Assembly: GCA_964035545.1 (NCBI GenBank)
Contig: CAXIUT010000310.1
Coordinates: 1-23,122 of the forward strand
DNA length: 23,122 nucleotides
Direction: 5' to 3'
Source of the DNA: Bugula neritina
Lineage: Eukaryota; Bryozoa; Gymnolaemata; Cheilostomatida; Bugulidae
Shown: positions 1 through 23,122 of the stretch, one piece after another
Layout of the letters: every line of letters begins with the position of its first letter
Position numbering within the stretch: the stretch's first letter is position 1
Program-made: the position numbers and the translations under genes
The notes under the pieces: model-generated
The model's database searches: none
What the model was told of the DNA's origin: nothing
What the model saw: only the letters and a program-made list of their open reading frames with translations

Positions 1-80
1 CCCAACCCCAACCCCAACCCCAACCCCAACCCCAACCCCAACCCCAACCCAACCCCAACCCCAACCCCAACCCCAACCCC
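1..80. repeat. Left telomere, C-rich strand
   Basis: A run of CCCCAA repeats from the first base to position 80, with one three-C variant near 48-50. At a left end this is the 5' C-strand of a G4T2 telomere. The G4T2 repeat is typical of oligohymenophorean ciliates. It shows that the window begins at a true or assembled chromosome end. Confidence 0.97.
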
Positions 81-471: not shown

Positions 472-1539
472 TCATTCCCCAATTAATCCAATGGTTACAT
501 TTTGAAGCATTTTATTCATTTCTTAATCATTTTTAAGTGCTCTTTTTATTGATAAAGGAGTTATTCTTTTTTTACCGTCATTTATTGTATCATTTCCTGA
601 TATTTCTAACAATTAAGCAGCCAAATATTCAAGAGTTGCTCCCAAATATATCGCACTTCCAACTCCCACTCTTTGACCTACCATTACTTCTTTGAGCCTT
701 CTTTTTATTCTCCCAATTGGAAAAACTAGACCAGATCTTGAAGCTCTTGTCTTACCTGAGCCTATCGATGCTTTTGCCTTCCCTACTTTGGATAAAGTAG
801 TCTTATGAATAACAGGTTTTGAAGCTGATTTTTTGTTTTTAGAGGGAATACTTTAAAGTGAATGTGTTCTTGCGAGAGCTGTTTTAAGTTTCTTTTTTTC
901 CTTTTCATGAATTGGACGATGGATAGGAGCTGGAGGAGGGATAGGACTTTTATCAAAAAGACTATCTGGAATTCTAGATACAGCCTATACCATTGAAGAA
1001 TTATTAAACGCATCTTTTCCTATTTTATCTAAAGTATCAAGTATGCTCAAAGAAGGAAACATAGTAAAAACTTGTGCTCGATACCCAGGTACCTTTACCA
1101 CTTCATTGTTCAATAAATCTAATTGCAGAAGAGATCTCATATTTTTTAAAGGAACTAAATTTTAAAGTTTTTAAATTTTATTAGCTCCTATCATTAGTGT
1201 TTGGAGATGTCTTAATCCGCTTAAATATTTGACATGATCTCCTGGGATATTATTAAAAACCATGTCTAAACGAATCAAAGACAAGATTTGTGGAAAGTTT
1301 TATAGAGAAATAATTCCACAATCATTTAAGGTTAGCATCTGAAGATATCTATATCTTTCAAGTTACTGTTTTATTTCATCTGTAAAGTATCCACCAAAGC
1401 GGACAGAAACTATATCTATAACATAGACCATATGGGGAGGAACTCCTTCAGTCTGTTCTCTAATAGATCTGATAAGTTTACTTGCTTCATAATTTGCAGG
1501 AGGAACCACTCCATTACTTCCAGTTGCTGATCCAAACAT
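472..1539 (-). CDS. ANP32-like leucine-rich repeat protein fused to histone H2A
   Basis: One uninterrupted frame of 355 codons from the first ATG (1537-1539) to TGA (472-474). An in-frame TGA lies upstream of the ATG. Residues about 20-180 form leucine-rich repeats ending in the LRR cap typical of ANP32 proteins: an LDLLNNEV strand, YRAQVF, then a [11 protein letters not shown] turn and GKDA. The acidic tail of ANP32 is absent. In its place is a proline-rich and then lysine/serine-rich linker (about 185-260). Residues about 262-355 are a histone H2A fold: [45 protein letters not shown] and NVTIGLIGE at the C-terminus. The L1 loop has the length of canonical H2A, not H2A.Z. The long H2A docking tail is missing. 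Acidic-patch Glu residues are kept, two of them encoded by TAA (613-615, 523-525). ANP32 family members are known histone chaperones (ANP32E acts on H2A.Z), so a chromatin role is inferred. Divergent from the gene at 1707. Confidence 0.93.
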
Positions 1540-3042: not shown

Positions 3043-5048
3043 TCAGTATTTGAAATTTTTTTGATTATTTCCAATTCTGCTTGTAGAAGCACTTCCTCGT
3101 AGTATAGATTGTGTTTTTTCCATTTTGAAAGTAGAAGAGCTTCGAACTAAACCAGTCTTTTGAGCTTATATTGGCTTATTTTCTTTATCTTAACGCCCAT
3201 CTCTTCTAAACCCATCTCTCATATTTTGCAATACTGATGCGATATATTTATGTCTTTTTTTGATCTAATCTGTCTGAGATTAAATTCCTTCTTTGCTAAA
3301 ACTAGTTCTCTCTCCAAACTTATTAACGTATGTTATTGAATCTTTTGAAAAAAGAAGTTCAGTATAATCCTGAAAAATAGTTTGATAATCTTTATTATTG
3401 AACCAGAATATAGTTGCTTTAGCTGTTTTAGCATGTTTCACCACCCAAGTATTCAAAGCATTTTCATTATTTTACTTTAGTCTCTGACGTTATTTCATTA
3501 TTATCTGTTCATTACTTAATCCTTTTTCATAACTCTCTTTTTTTATTTTCATCTATTTCTGGTAGTAGCTAATAATTTTGAACTTTTTCGTCAATTTTTG
3601 AGGAATAGATGATACATCAAAAACTTAAAAAGTTTTTTCTTATTCATTTTTTGCTAAAAAATCGATATACTTCATTTTCTGGAATTGACAGTTAGAAATA
3701 AGAGTAGTAGAATCGTTAAATCTCATTCCAGTTCCATTTGAACTCAATAAATAAGCAGTTCCAAATTTAGGATTTTCTTAAAAGAAAGTAATCCAAACAA
3801 GAGGTCCATTTTGAGACCTGACTTCGTTCGAACTTATTTTAACCACTTCTGTTTTAGTAGAAAGCATTCTTCCCCGAGTTAAAGCAGCTGTAGAAGCAGC
3901 TCTTTGTCCATAGTTGTTTTTACTTAATTGCTAAATACTATTAGTTCTGATTAAAATTCTAGCTGATTATCCTTTTTCAAGAATTTTTTGTCCAAATTGT
4001 GAATCATTACTCTACCTGTGTCGAAGATCTACAGAACATCCCAAATTATACTTATCTAGGAATATTTTATTGGGTGCACAAGCAAGAAGAGTTGTAGGTA
4101 AAATTTCAGGTATTGGAGAACTAAAAAATTAGTCGTTTAGAATTTCTTCAATGGTTAGGCGATGTTTAGGATCTTTTTGAAGAAGTTTTGAAATAAATTT
4201 TTTAGAAACTTTTTATAGATGTAAATGGTCAGGGAAAGAGTAATTGCACATCTTAATTTTGGCATATGTGGTTTTGATATCGTTTGTTTCAAAAGGAGGA
4301 CGACCAACCAGACAAGCATAGGCAATAACACCCAAACTCCAAATATCAACTTCATAAGAATGTCCTAAACTGTTATCTTCATTATTACATAAATACTCTA
4401 AATAATTTAAGGTGCAATATAGTTGGGAGTTCCACACATAGTTCTTCTTCTTTCTTGGTGATAGTTTAGCTTTGCAGCTAATCCAAAATCACTTATTCTG
4501 ATTTAAAGGCTATCAGTAAGAAGAAGATTTCCAAGTTTGAGGTCTCTATGAATGATCATTTGTTCTTGAAAATCTTTTACAGCCAAAGCCATTTGTCTTA
4601 AGTAGTATTTTGTTTCAATTTAACTAATTCTTTTTCTTCTTTTAATCAATTAGTTCAGAGTCTGGTTGGGACAAAGTTCAAGTAAAATATACACATTGAC
4701 TGAGTCTTCGAAATGTCTTTAGTACTTAACCACAAACTCTGATTTTACAGACTTATGAATCTCTATTTAAGAGGCAAGCTATCTATCTAAAATAGTACTT
4801 TTTATTTAGCCTTGCTTCGATTTAGGGTAGCTTTTTCAATAATTTTAGCTGCATACTTTCGACCTGTGCTGATATGAGTCAACTCATAACATTTAGCAAA
4901 TCCTCCCTGAGTTTGATTAAATATACTTTGCCAAGGTATCTTCCCTTGGAGTATTTATTGACTACAACTCCTTGCTTATTCTTTTCCTCTACTATATTTT
5001 ACCCTAAATTACTTAAAATATACCTTTTATTGATGTTCTATCTTCCAT
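3043..5048 (-). CDS. Polo-like kinase
   Basis: A serine/threonine kinase of the polo family, which controls mitosis, centriole/basal body function and cytokinesis. Five exons: introns at 5004-5023, 4907-4926, 4779-4798 and 4377-4396, each exactly 20 nt. Their removal leaves 642 codons (641 aa). The kinase domain covers about residues 25-285: [10 protein letters not shown] glycine loop, catalytic Lys55, alpha-C Glu74, HRDLKLGN (Asp149), ISDFGLA (Asp167), activation-loop Thr183 in [14 protein letters not shown], then YEVDIWSLG and the family mark VGRPPFE. The C-terminal half carries two polo-box-like segments ([20 protein letters not shown] with the GMRFNDST strand, and [20 protein letters not shown] followed by a KFGERTSFS strand), which bind phosphopeptides in this family. 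The Glu of APE and the alpha-C Glu are encoded by TAA. Size and order of parts are typical for PLK1-type kinases. Confidence 0.96.
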
Positions 5049-5942: not shown

Positions 5943-6011
5943 GGGGTTGGGGTTGGGGTTGGGGTTGGGGTTGGGGTTGGGGTTGGGGTTGGGGTTGGGG
6001 TTGGGGTTGGG
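5943..6011. repeat. Interstitial telomeric array 1 (GGGGTT, 69 bp)
   Basis: Eleven and a half perfect GGGGTT units inside the window, with unique sequence on both sides. The G-rich strand runs rightward, the orientation expected for a right chromosome end. The segment 1-6011 therefore has telomere sequence at both ends with correct polarity and holds four complete genes. Either the genome contains this array (fusion, retained telomere or an alternative end) or two molecules were joined in assembly. Confidence 0.97.
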
Positions 6012-10796: not shown

Positions 10797-11990
10797 TCAT
10801 TATCCCAAAATAAAACTTCTCAACACAGGATCTTCGATTTCATTACTCTCAACTGGTCTCACGAAATGATCAGAAAAAAACTACCCTACAATATCGATTC
10901 CATCTTTAGTTAACCTTCCTAATCCATTCATACGATCAGCTCCCCACTGTCCTCGGTATTCTCCTCCTTACACCCAAAGATAATGACCTAAACCTTCTCT
11001 TTTGTCCTGATTAAACTAGCCAACATAAGTATCAGCCGTTGCCCATCGATATTTACCATGTCCATGTTTCATACCTTGATGAAAATTTCCTTCATATTGC
11101 TCCCCAATATCAAGAGTAAGGTTTCCTAATCCTTACTTGAGATCGTTTTTCCAAAATCCTTGATAAATATCTCCATTTTTATAGTAATAGACACCCTGAT
11201 AGCGAAGATTATCTTTAAAGCTTCCTTTGAATACATCTCCATTAAAGAGAGTCAGTTATCCCTAGACTTTAGCATCTCCTGTCCATAATCCTTCAAAGAC
11301 AGTACCTTCACTGAAATAGTAACTTCCTTTTCCTTCTTTTTTACCTTATATAAAATTGCCTACATATCTATCTTTGTTAACATACTAAAAACTTCCCTAT
11401 CCGTTGGGTAAATCCATCTAAAAATGTCCAGAATAAACACTTCCATCTGGAAATATTAATCTCCCTCGTCCATGTCTTCTATTTTTCATAAACTATCCCA
11501 CATAGGTTTCTTTGCTGACTTTGTTGTCGTGATAGCCACTTCCTGAATATTATCCCATACGCCATTCTCCTTCATAGATTTCTTCTTCACTGAAGTATAG
11601 ACCTTCTCCTTGTTTGAGTCCTTGTTGCCAATTTCCTTAATAGTAAGAATTTCCGTTGCCATAATAATAAATTCCTTTTCCTTCCATCTTTCCCTGTTGG
11701 ATCAGCCCATCAAATATCTCACCGTTAGAATGCATATAGACTCCTTGAATGTGGAACTCATCATCGTTCCAAGTACCAAAGTAAACATCTCCTTCTGGAT
11801 ATGTATAAATTCCCTTTCCTGTCCTCAATTGTTCACCAGATAGTTGTCCCAAATATATTCCACCATCAGGATATGTAACTTCTACTACATCAGAAATGCT
11901 CTGAAGTCTTTGGACAAACTAGTTCTTTCGTAAGTTGTAAGTCCTTAATACCTAGTTTTTTATTTGAGAAGGTTGCGTTCTGAAAGACAT
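10797..11990 (-). CDS. MORN-repeat protein, 397 aa
   Basis: A single-exon gene from ATG 11988-11990 to TGA 10797-10799. After a short N-terminal helix (residues 1-45) it consists of about a dozen MORN repeats of 23 residues with the pattern YxGxWxxGxxxGxGxxxxxxG. Clear ones are YFGTWNDDEFHIQGVYMHSN, YEGNWQQGLKQGEGLYF, YVGNFIEGKKEGKGSYYF and YEGNFHQGMKHGHGKYRW. A short acidic tail follows. MORN arrays form rod-like sheets that link membranes to the cytoskeleton; radial spoke heads, basal body and cortical proteins of ciliates carry them. No kinase or other catalytic domain is attached. Exact subfamily not determined. Confidence 0.93.
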
Positions 11991-12069
11991 AAAACTTATT
12001 CGATAAATTATAATAAAATCAATTAACATACAAATGTCTATAAAATAAACTATTCAAAGAACAAACGAT

Positions 12070-16366: not shown

Positions 16367-17404
16367 TCATTTGCAGTTTTTGAACTCTTGGCAACGCTCT
16401 ACTAGTCCTCCAGCTGATGTTTTGATAGCTTTTCCAGTGGCATCTGAAGGATATTGCCAATGAGCAATACCAGCGTACCATTTATGTTAATCATAGGCCT
16501 TGTTAGCATATTTTCCTAAATCTTCCATACTGATCCAACCTGTGTTAGAAGCATCAGAAGTCAATATAGGTTTAGCAACTACTATCTTCTTTAGAGGAAC
16601 TCCTCGTTTGTTCACTTCCATTACAGATGTCCCATTGAATACAGAACCAGTAGCATGAGTAAACAACTCTTAATAACTATCATATTTAGAGTCAACTTGG
16701 TTATAAAATTGCAAACTGTAGAAGTTGATCAAGTCTCCAACCTTGTCGTTAATAGTTTTATAACCTCCATTGGGGTAATATTAGTTTTTGAAGTAAGGAG
16801 CCTGAGGGCAATGACTTACAATATGATAGGGAATAACTTCTCTGAGAGCTTTAGTAAAATCGATGAGCCAAGCCTAACCTGTTCCTTTGCTCATAGCACT
16901 ATTGTCTTCCCAATCAATGTCAGCTCCATCAAGGTTGTTTTCAAGAACATATTGACCAAGAGCTCTACCACAGCGAACAGGATCTGAACCAGCTGAAGTA
17001 GGAAATTAACTATCTCCAAAAGCACTCACCATGATCTTGATATTGTGAGCATTGTATATCTTCTTAATAGCCTTTTGAATAGATTGAGTATCATTTCCAA
17101 AGGAATTTCCTTGGGCAAAATATGTATAAGCATTGGCCCAAACCATTGCTATATCTTTAGGAGCTCCAGAACAACTCCAAAATGCCAATAAAATATAGTT
17201 ATAATCATGAGGAGGAGCATACCCTGGAACTCCTAAAGCCTCAGCAATACTATCTCCATACCATGACTTGATTCGGTCAATATAAGCCAGTCTAATTGGG
17301 TAGTTGTTTTTGGACAAGGTAGGAGTTTTATCTTTTAACCGACGGTTAATGAAGAAAGCCTGCATGCTGAAAACAAGCACCAACAGCAACACTACTCTCA
17401 ACAT
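16367..17404 (-). CDS. Secreted GH18 chitinase-like glycosidase
   Basis: GH18 enzymes cleave chitin and related beta-1,4-GlcNAc polymers. One exon of 345 codons from ATG 17402-17404 to TGA 16367-16369. A signal peptide (MLRVVLLLVLVFSMQAFF) sends it to the secretory pathway. The TIM-barrel marks follow in order: YNYILLAFW, IMVSAFGDSEFPTSAG, the catalytic DxxDxDxE motif as LDGADIDWED (the Glu is the acid/base), GTGEAWLIDFTKALR, VSHCPQAPYF, INFYSLQFYNQ, KKIVVAKPI and GIAHWQYPSD. All catalytic residues are present. Glu in SEFPTSAG and GTGEAW is encoded by TAA and TAG, which supports the Glu reading. A role in feeding, or in remodelling of a chitin-containing stalk, lorica or cyst wall, is inferred. 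Confidence 0.94.
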
Positions 17405-17545
17405 AACTTTATTGGTATGATTATTTATCAAAAATTAAAGCTTATCTCCTTATTACGCCTTATTAAATCATCCTCTTTTAAAAATTACTTCTCTATCATA
17501 TCAAAAATAAGACAAAAATATTTTAAACATTCAAATAACAAAAGA

Positions 17546-19431: not shown

Positions 19432-21001
19432 GTTTATTGATTATTTTTTTTAAAAATTTGTGATTTATTGAACTTATTCTATTTTCCTTTATGGTTTAAT
19501 TTCAATTTAAGAAGTAGCTATTTGACCAGCAATTTCCTTCTTGTTCTTTTGAACTTATTCTATTTTCCTTTATGGTTTAATTTCAATTTAAGAAGTAGCT
19601 ATTTGACCAGCAATTTCCTTCTTGTTCTTTTGAACTTATTCTATTTTCCTTTATGGTTTAATTTCAATTTAAGAAGTAGCTATTTGACCAGCAATTTCCT
19701 TCTTGTTCTTTTGAACTTATTCTATTTTCCTTTATGGTTTAATTTCAATTTAAGAAGTAGCTATTTGACCAGCAATTTCCTTCTTGTTCTTTTGAACTTA
19801 TTCTATTTTCCTTTATGGTTTAATTTCAATTTAAGAAGTAGCTATTTGACCAGCAATTTCCTTCTTGTTCTTTTGAACTTATTCTATTTTCCTTTATGGT
19901 TTAATTTCAATTTAAGAAGTAGCTATTTGACCAGCAATTTCCTTCTTGTTCTTTTGAACTTATTCTATTTTCCTTTATGGTTTAATTTCAATTTAAGAAG
20001 TAGCTATTTGACCAGCAATTTCCTTCTTGTTCTTTTGAACTTATTCTATTTTCCTTTATGGTTTAATTTCAATTTAAGAAGTAGCTATTTGACCAGCAAT
20101 TTCCTTCTTGTTCTTTTGAACTTATTCTATTTTCCTTTATGGTTTAATTTCAATTTAAGAAGTAGCTATTTGACCAGCAATTTCCTTCTTGTTCTTTTGA
20201 ACTTATTCTATTTTCCTTTATGGTTTAATTTCAATTTAAGAAGTAGCTATTTGACCAGCAATTTCCTTCTTGTTCTTTTGAACTTATTCTATTTTCCTTT
20301 ATGGTTTAATTTCAATTTAAGAAGTAGCTATTTGACCAGCAATTTCCTTCTTGTTCTTTTGAACTTATTCTATTTTCCTTTATGGTTTAATTTCAATTTA
20401 AGAAGTAGCTATTTGACCAGCAATTTCCTTCTTGTTCTTTTGAACTTATTCTATTTTCCTTTATGGTTTAATTTCAATTTAAGAAGTAGCTATTTGACCA
20501 GCAATTTCCTTCTTGTTCTTTTTGAACTTATTCTATTTTCCTTTATGGTTTAATTTCAATTTAAGAAGTAGCTATTTGACCAGCAATTTCCTTCTTGTTC
20601 TTTTGAACTTATTCTATTTTCCTTTATGGTTTAATTTCAATTTAAGAAGTAGCTATTTGACCAGCAATTTCCTTCTTGTTCTTTTGAACTTATTCTATTT
20701 TCCTTTATGGTTTAATTTCAATTTAAGAAGTAGCTATTTGACCAGCAATTTCCTTCTTGTTCTTTTGAACTTATTCTATTTTCCTTTAAGAAATAGCTCT
20801 CTAATTGCTAACTTAATTCTTATGTTATAGACCAGTTTTATTTTATGGAGTTATTATTTATTGATTATTTTAGACAATACTTTGAACAATATTGTCAGGA
20901 GGAATTGAAGTCTTTTCTATCAGAGTTTATTCTTGTGAAGATGGAGTAAGTGGTATTTATGATTGTGACTGTTTCTTCAATTGATTCAATTGATTAATCA
21001 T
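19390..21001 (-). CDS. 27-residue tandem-repeat protein, frame broken by one base
   Basis: From ATG 20999-21001 a frame runs leftward through 20 kb of array edge: a unique N-terminus of about 70 residues (MINQLNQLKKQSQSEIPLTP, SIPPDNIVQSIVENN, ERAISERKIEEVQ) and then perfect 27-residue repeats KNKKEIAGQIATSEIEIKPE RKIEEVQ. After three full repeats one extra A/T in a homopolymer (plus strand T5 instead of T4 at 20519-20523) shifts the frame, and the literal product ends at TGA 20474-20476 (175 aa). Ignoring that base, the frame continues through thirteen more repeats to TGA 19390-19392 (536 aa). The repeats are charged and probably helical. Function unknown; structural or surface repeat protein is a guess. 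The plus-strand hydrophobic frame is the shadow. Confidence 0.66.
19470..20790. repeat. 81-bp tandem array, 16 copies plus a partial
   Basis: Sixteen essentially identical 81-base units starting GAACTTATTCTATTTTCC, with a partial seventeenth at the right edge. Thirteen units lie left of the single-base insertion near 20523 and three to its right. 81 is a multiple of three and all units stay open on the minus strand under the Glu code. Lack of divergence points to recent expansion or homogenisation. Confidence 0.98.
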
Positions 21002-21116: not shown

Positions 21117-21699
21117 TCATTTTATATTATGCTTATTTTCTGAGGCTAGAACTCCAATCATAAAAGTAGCAAAAGTACCAAAAGTACTAAAAACAAATAA
21201 ATAAAATAGACAAATGTTATTTTTACCTGCACATTTTCCAATCCACATACAATGATGGTCAAAAACCCCTTATACAAACATCACATTGCTGACAATGTCT
21301 TGAGTCGATAGGTCGATATCCATTACATTTAGGACACAGCTTCTCATTGCTCTCTACGTTTCCTTCAGAAAGAAGAGTTTTGTTTTTAGGAATAATGCCA
21401 GGATTAGAAAATCCAACCATCATATAGCTCATCATAAATATAATTATGCCAACTAAAATCACTACTTTCCATGAGTGAAAGAGTCTGTCTTGGGATCTAA
21501 TGAATAAAAAGACAAATAAAAAAGATAAGAAGAGAAATCCGCAAAAGAAAACAGCATCTTTGATAAGATTAGAGTTACAGTGAGGACCAAGAGTGCAGAT
21601 AGGCTGATCATTGCAAATAAATATACCTTTATTAGCTCCATACTAGGAAAAAGTCTCTTCTTTTTGCTATTATTGTTCAAGACTCTGTTCATTATTCAT
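21117..21699 (-). CDS. DHHC palmitoyltransferase, compact, with +1 frameshift
   Basis: DHHC enzymes attach palmitate to cysteines of membrane proteins. From ATG 21697-21699 the frame gives a short N-terminus with a Cys cluster ([14 protein letters not shown]), two membrane spans ([19 protein letters not shown] and [19 protein letters not shown]), the NPGIIPK motif, and the zinc-binding cysteine-rich domain [25 protein letters not shown]. Exactly there the frame meets TTT TGA C. Skipping one base restores [15 protein letters not shown] and a third span ([20 protein letters not shown]). The gene then ends at TGA 21117-21119 (about 193 aa). The usual fourth span and TTxE motif are missing. The extra base lies in an A5/T5 run (21261-21265): sequencing error, broken gene or programmed shift. 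Confidence 0.85.
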
Positions 21700-21796
21700 A
21701 GATGTTATATTTTGTTTTGATTATTAAGACTCTGTTCATTATTCATAGATGTTATCAAAGATCTAGATGTGATTAACATTATTCATAGATATTATA
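21679..21796. repeat. Duplicated DHHC gene start and upstream element
   Basis: A 30-base block that contains the DHHC start codon and first codons (21679-21708) is repeated at 21726-21755, and its last part again at about 21776-21796 (ATTATTCATAGAT core). A local duplication of the promoter/start region. Confidence 0.85.
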
Positions 21797-21844: not shown

Positions 21845-21925
21845 GGGGTTGGGGTTGGGGTTGGGGTTGGGGTTGGGGTTGGGGTTGGGGTTGGGGTTGG
21901 GGTTGGGGTTGGGGTTGGGGTTGGG
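21845..21925. repeat. Interstitial telomeric array 2 (GGGGTT, 81 bp)
   Basis: Thirteen and a half perfect GGGGTT units with unique DNA on both sides. The orientation is again that of a right chromosome end, the same as array 1 and the terminal telomere. It lies 146 bases upstream of the DHHC start and 1.1 kb from the right telomere. Confidence 0.97.
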
Positions 21926-23023: not shown

Positions 23024-23122
23024 GGGGTGGGGTTGGGGTTGGGGTTGGGGTTGGGGTTGGGGTTGGGGTTGGGGTTGGGGTTGGGGTTGGGGTTTGGGGT
23101 TGGGGTTGGGGTTGGGGTTGGG
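23024..23122. repeat. Right telomere, G-rich strand
   Basis: GGGGTT repeats to the last base. The first unit is GGGGTGGGGTT and one later unit near 23089-23096 has three T. These small variants at the junction and within fit template slips by telomerase. This is the right chromosome end. Confidence 0.97.

Follow-up and report, generated by a model that had tools for sequence, protein, structure and literature searches.

A Ciliate-Type Chromosome Read with the Peritrich Code

The window, that is, the whole stretch of 23,122 nucleotides analyzed here, is a complete contig (C293) of a 215.8 Mb assembly comprising 295 contigs and deposited for the bryozoan Bugula neritina. Its minus strand carries a gene of the H2A.Y type, read from 1539 to 472, whose 355-residue product terminates in TGA (Table 1). 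Since telomeric repeats cap both ends, the window constitutes a whole chromosome of the ciliate macronuclear type. Eight H2A matches on contigs C1, C5, and C9 are free of in-frame TAA and TAG, for which reason we assign the assembly mainly to another eukaryote; five weaker H2A matches on C2 and C7 show TAG twice, TGA twice, and no stop once. The ciliate is probably an epibiont or a contaminant. The window's own copy is the only full H2A.Y among 17 matches in the assembly. The assembly also contains an ordinary H2A ending in SQAV, on C158, and on C15 a gene of H2A.Z type with a single TAA.

Table 1. Features of the window; residue numbers refer to the product of the H2A.Y-type gene.
Feature	Positions	Strand	Remarks
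Telomeric C4A2 repeat	1..80		left chromosome end
H2A.Y-type gene	472..1539	-	355 codons and TGA stop; ATG at 1539; code table 30
Short C-terminus, LIGE and TGA stop	472..486	-	docking tail missing
H2A histone fold	487..756	-	residues 262-351
Basic linker, Pro- then Lys/Ser-rich	757..945	-	residues 199-261; 15 K/R, 3 D/E
Linker stretch KKLxxALARTxSLxS	850..894	-	residues 216-230
Linker motif SRxPDxLFDKS	946..978	-	residues 188-198; conserved
LRR domain, ANP32-type cap	1006..1431	-	residues 37-178
Four LxxLxLxxN strands		-	in the LRR domain; starts at residues 66, 88, 112, 137
Protein kinase domain and POLO box	3043..4835	-	two overlapping frames, about 1.5 kb from the H2A.Y-type gene
Perfect internal GGGGTT array	5943..6011		11.5 copies; right-telomere orientation
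MORN-repeat gene	10797..12053	-
Glycosyl hydrolase 18 gene	16367..17467	-
81-base tandem repeat	19468..20788		16.3 copies, 99% match; several frames open
Weak DHHC match	21259..21735	-	under the Pfam cut-off
Perfect internal GGGGTT array	21845..21925		13.5 copies; right-telomere orientation
Telomeric G4T2 repeat	23024..23122		right chromosome end

An earlier sequence-only reading had described an uninterrupted exon at this locus without naming its strand. The open frame itself stands; it lies on the minus strand, the plus strand between 472 and 1539 being full of stops and devoid of the protein, and it is open only if TAA (seven internal codons) and TAG (one) are read as residues. Table 6, in which both codons specify Gln, was tried first and ruled out, as the codons align to Glu far more often than to Gln: Of the 156 cells that 29 aligned relatives place opposite the eight in-frame TAA/TAG codons, 101 hold Glu, 31 Asp, and 4 Gln; at the CAA/CAG codons of the gene, Gln occupies 99 of 147. 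Consequently, the peritrich code (table 30, TAA/TAG = Glu) fits the gene and table 6 does not. Two acids of the acidic patch, E309 and E339, are themselves encoded by TAA.

The Protein Joins an ANP32-Fold LRR Domain to an H2A Fold

The fusion of LRR domain and H2A is genuine: An LRR domain of ANP32 fold, a basic linker, and an H2A fold follow one another in one frame, which is stop-free between the two halves; 29 of the 93 proteins matched in a profile search likewise carry both parts in a single frame. The architecture proposed by the sequence-only reading was borne out. The ANP32-capped LRR domain is recognized by Pfam LRR_9 (E = 6.1e-10) with a score above the cut-off, and its best matches in both sequence and fold are ANP32A and ANP32B, to which it is nearer than to SDS22 by either measure. 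The Pro- then Lys/Ser-rich linker was found as described. A full H2A fold is indicated by the match of residues 253-351 to a solved H2A chain (E = 2e-26), though Pfam Histone stays below its cut-off (19.2 bits versus 26.4); the predicted structure of this half is of middling confidence, with blocks of 59-76 over residues 271-340. All six acids of the acidic patch (residues 304, 309, 312, 338, 339, and 340) are present, and the long docking tail is indeed missing, the fold being followed by a LIGE terminus and the stop.

Within the linker, the predicted structure is of low confidence over residues 190-211, which cover most of the SRxPDxLFDKS motif; this might be expected of a short docking motif. 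Further downstream, the stretch KKLxxALARTxSLxS recurs in many unnamed relatives and is absent from Tetrahymena; it looks like a basophilic kinase site, and a helix predicted for residues 211-224 overlaps part of it.

Among other options, the sequence-only reading had proposed a self-chaperoning variant, in which an ANP32-type chaperone is joined covalently to the H2A that it serves. ANP32A/B, as the top matches of the LRR half in sequence and fold, speak for this proposal, which we found unsupported and rate as very unlikely. ANP32 proteins are defined by an acidic tail C-terminal to the LRRs. In the window protein this tail is missing and the linker is basic; moreover, in comparison with ANP32A (PDB 2jqd), only 2 of 20 positions of the concave LRR face are identical, as opposed to 14 of 20 in the core and 17 of 57 elsewhere. 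The core is thus like that of ANP32A while the concave face is not, which amounts to an ANP32 fold with a different surface, and a histone fold is attached to it. The chaperone reading was rejected on the basic, tail-less linker and the differing surface. Two further points speak against it: The published function of a protein of the same layout is phosphatase regulation, and the assembly holds a separate ANP32-type gene on C72, in which ANP32-type LRRs are followed by an acidic tail. This gene contains in-frame TAA/TAG codons, and its best match is ANP32A, with E = 1.2e-11 when the tail is included and 3.9e-9 against a 169-residue ANP32A chain. At this locus (C72:29000-35000), the LRR part is split across frames, by small introns or frameshifts.

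A Family Shared with Tetrahymena H2A.Y

The protein search returned 29 relatives, one of which bears the name Histone H2A.Y: H2AY_TETTS of Tetrahymena thermophila (P0024, 388 aa), whose alignment covers 93% of the query at 42% identity (E = 1.8e-70). Tetrahymena malaccensis and T. utriculariae supply two further matches, another two are labelled simply "histone H2A", and the remainder are hypothetical or unnamed; because of their closeness to the window protein, we take the unnamed ones to be peritrich proteins. Of the 93 matches in the profile search, 91 have E-values of at most 3.0e-30, after which the values jump to 4.6e-14 for a plain histone and 3.8e-10 for an LRR protein, a gap that, at the level of sequence similarity, shows the H2A.Y-type proteins as a discrete family. 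By BLAST extent against the window protein, 29 of the 93 cover both LRR and histone parts, 37 the LRR part only, and 19 the histone part only, with 7 under both thresholds and 1 unaligned. Many entries are fragmentary, most simply as a result of prediction with standard stops; the database relatives were probably predicted in this way, which makes their ends unsure. The motif [SA]R[VI]PDxLFDK is present in 65 of the 68 relatives that cover its site.

The homology to Tetrahymena H2A.Y spans both halves as well as the linker motif, and the two proteins share a capped LRR domain, a motif-bearing linker (SRVPDNLFDKS in Tetrahymena), and an H2A fold in the same order. They differ in the use of TAA/TAG for Glu and the shorter linker of the window protein, in the acidic patch, with six acids in the window protein and five in Tetrahymena H2A.Y, and in the docking tail, which Tetrahymena H2A.Y has kept; as it is missing here, the nucleosome behaviour of this copy may differ. 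Taken together, we consider it probable that the window encodes the H2A.Y of a peritrich-code ciliate, orthologous to that of Tetrahymena, with an LRR domain that is tethered to chromatin and likely holds PP1.

H2A.Y was reportedly described by Song et al. in 2012 (Genes Dev 26:615). With the Tetrahymena protein of the same layout in print since that year, the claim of the sequence-only reading that no such protein had been described is wrong, and the fusion, a peritrich-type relative of an already known mitotic variant, brings no new chromatin architecture. New are the occurrence of H2A.Y in a peritrich-code ciliate and the missing docking tail. Our literature search, which covered few subscription papers, yielded no peritrich H2A.Y, and the word "histone" is absent from the main text of a peritrich genome paper; an earlier report may exist.

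The Concave LRR Face and the Linker Motif Are More Conserved than the Histone Fold

The conservation between the window protein and T. thermophila H2A.Y is distributed unevenly. With concave positions assigned by the general LRR pattern and not from coordinates, 19 of 20 are identical, compared with 17 of 20 in the LRR core, 23 of 55 at the other positions within residues 66-160, and 38 of 90 in the histone fold; likewise, the linker motif retains 9 of 11 residues and the remainder of the linker 11 of 53. By one-sided Fisher tests, the concave face exceeds the other LRR positions (p = 1.9e-5) and the histone fold (p = 8e-6), while concave face and LRR core do not differ (p = 0.30). Since the three Tetrahymena sequences are near-copies, they count as one comparison rather than three. 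That the concave face and the SRxPDxLFDK motif appear more conserved than the histone fold is likewise new, and an H2A.Y-specific ligand seems to have been kept between Tetrahymena and the lineage of the window. A second, distant lineage displays which parts are strict (concave face and linker motif) and which are loose (histone fold and docking tail), and, as to how such a variant directs a phosphatase, the comparison leaves a short list of residues.

In a tree of 22 H2A folds, containing 13 H2A.Y rows (10 peritrich-type, 3 Tetrahymena) and one H2A.Z-like row, the 10 peritrich-type rows group together (95/97), and the three Tetrahymena rows adjoin the H2A.Z-like row (80/77, unstarred), which the window row does not. 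A single clade of all 13 H2A.Y rows is absent from the tree and is recovered in 17% of bootstrap trees, as would be the case if the LRR-H2A fusion had arisen twice independently, in Tetrahymena and in peritrichs, with a convergent layout. We deem this very unlikely: The LRR face and the linker motif, both outside the histone, occur in the same order and are nearly identical, a test of the H2A folds as a single clade does not reject it (p-AU 0.27), and several end branches of the tree are long. An H2A.Z identity was set aside. H2A.Z typically has GDEE at the acidic patch in place of the NDEE of H2A, and the H2A.Z-like gene on C15 reads GDEE. The window protein reads NDEE, for which reason the assignment was dropped, though the Tetrahymena rows adjoin the H2A.Z-like row without firm support.

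A Putative PP1 Site on a Proposed Chromatin-Bound LRR Domain

According to two published reports, the LRR domain of Tetrahymena H2A.Y has phosphatase-regulating activity (PMC3380720), and the protein binds PP1 and is required for the dephosphorylation of H3-S10 after mitosis (PMC3516489). On these published grounds, PP1 is the best candidate for the ligand, the concave face and the linker motif would constitute a putative PP1 site, and the window copy may act like its Tetrahymena counterpart. The H2A part would pair with H2B and enter nucleosomes, thereby anchoring the LRR half on chromatin. Held by the concave face together with the SRxPDxLFDKS motif, a partner, most likely PP1, could then remove the mitotic phosphate of H3-S10 locally at the end of division. 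More tentatively, and with a weight well below that given to orthology, H2A.Y can be pictured as an old mitotic tether common to peritrichs and Tetrahymena, with the histone as a loose anchor and the concave face and motif as a near-frozen putative PP1 docking site; if true, the loss of the docking tail in the peritrich-type copy would yield a less stable, quickly exchanged nucleosome.

Alternatively, the LRR domain of this H2A.Y-type protein might recruit something else than PP1, such as a spindle factor or one acting in deposition, with only an indirect link to PP1. In favor of this reading, the concave face is strongly conserved, and the LRR half resembles ANP32 and not the PP1 regulator SDS22 (PPP1R7), which carries no histone and has 12 repeats, as opposed to four recognized strands next to a histone in the window protein. 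Since a later paper reports PP1 binding by the Tetrahymena domain (PMC3516489), we regard a non-PP1 partner as unlikely. In the literature searched, we found no description of PP1 docking by four ANP32-type repeats instead of the twelve of SDS22.

Published work on SDS22 names LRR11, LRR12, and the C-cap as its lost end and F170, E192, F214, and E300 as PP1-binding residues. Placed by arithmetic from the alignment ends and not letter by letter, F170 falls near F95 (VFN), and E192 lies roughly opposite A119 (GAN), a mismatch. By the same arithmetic, SDS22 position 148, a PP1 contact, falls near D73 (NDC). No weight is given to these placements, because xFN is common in LRRs. Scans of the assembly yielded 10 matches for PF14580 and 6 for PF12799, one scan scoring 150 of 1278 candidates, and a ciliate SDS22 gene was not identified among them: A candidate on C126 was rejected, its frames looking like those of another LRR protein, and the LRR matches on C1 look like U2A'.

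Other Features of the Chromosome

The remainder of the window holds several further genes and repeats (Table 1). The two overlapping kinase and POLO-box frames probably represent a single gene for a Polo-like mitotic kinase. Among the matches listed, contigs C10, C11, C14, C15, and C158 also start with C4A2 repeats, and internal GGGGTT arrays like those of the window lie within C10, C11, C14, and C15 as well; such arrays could be traces of former chromosome ends or sites of breakage.
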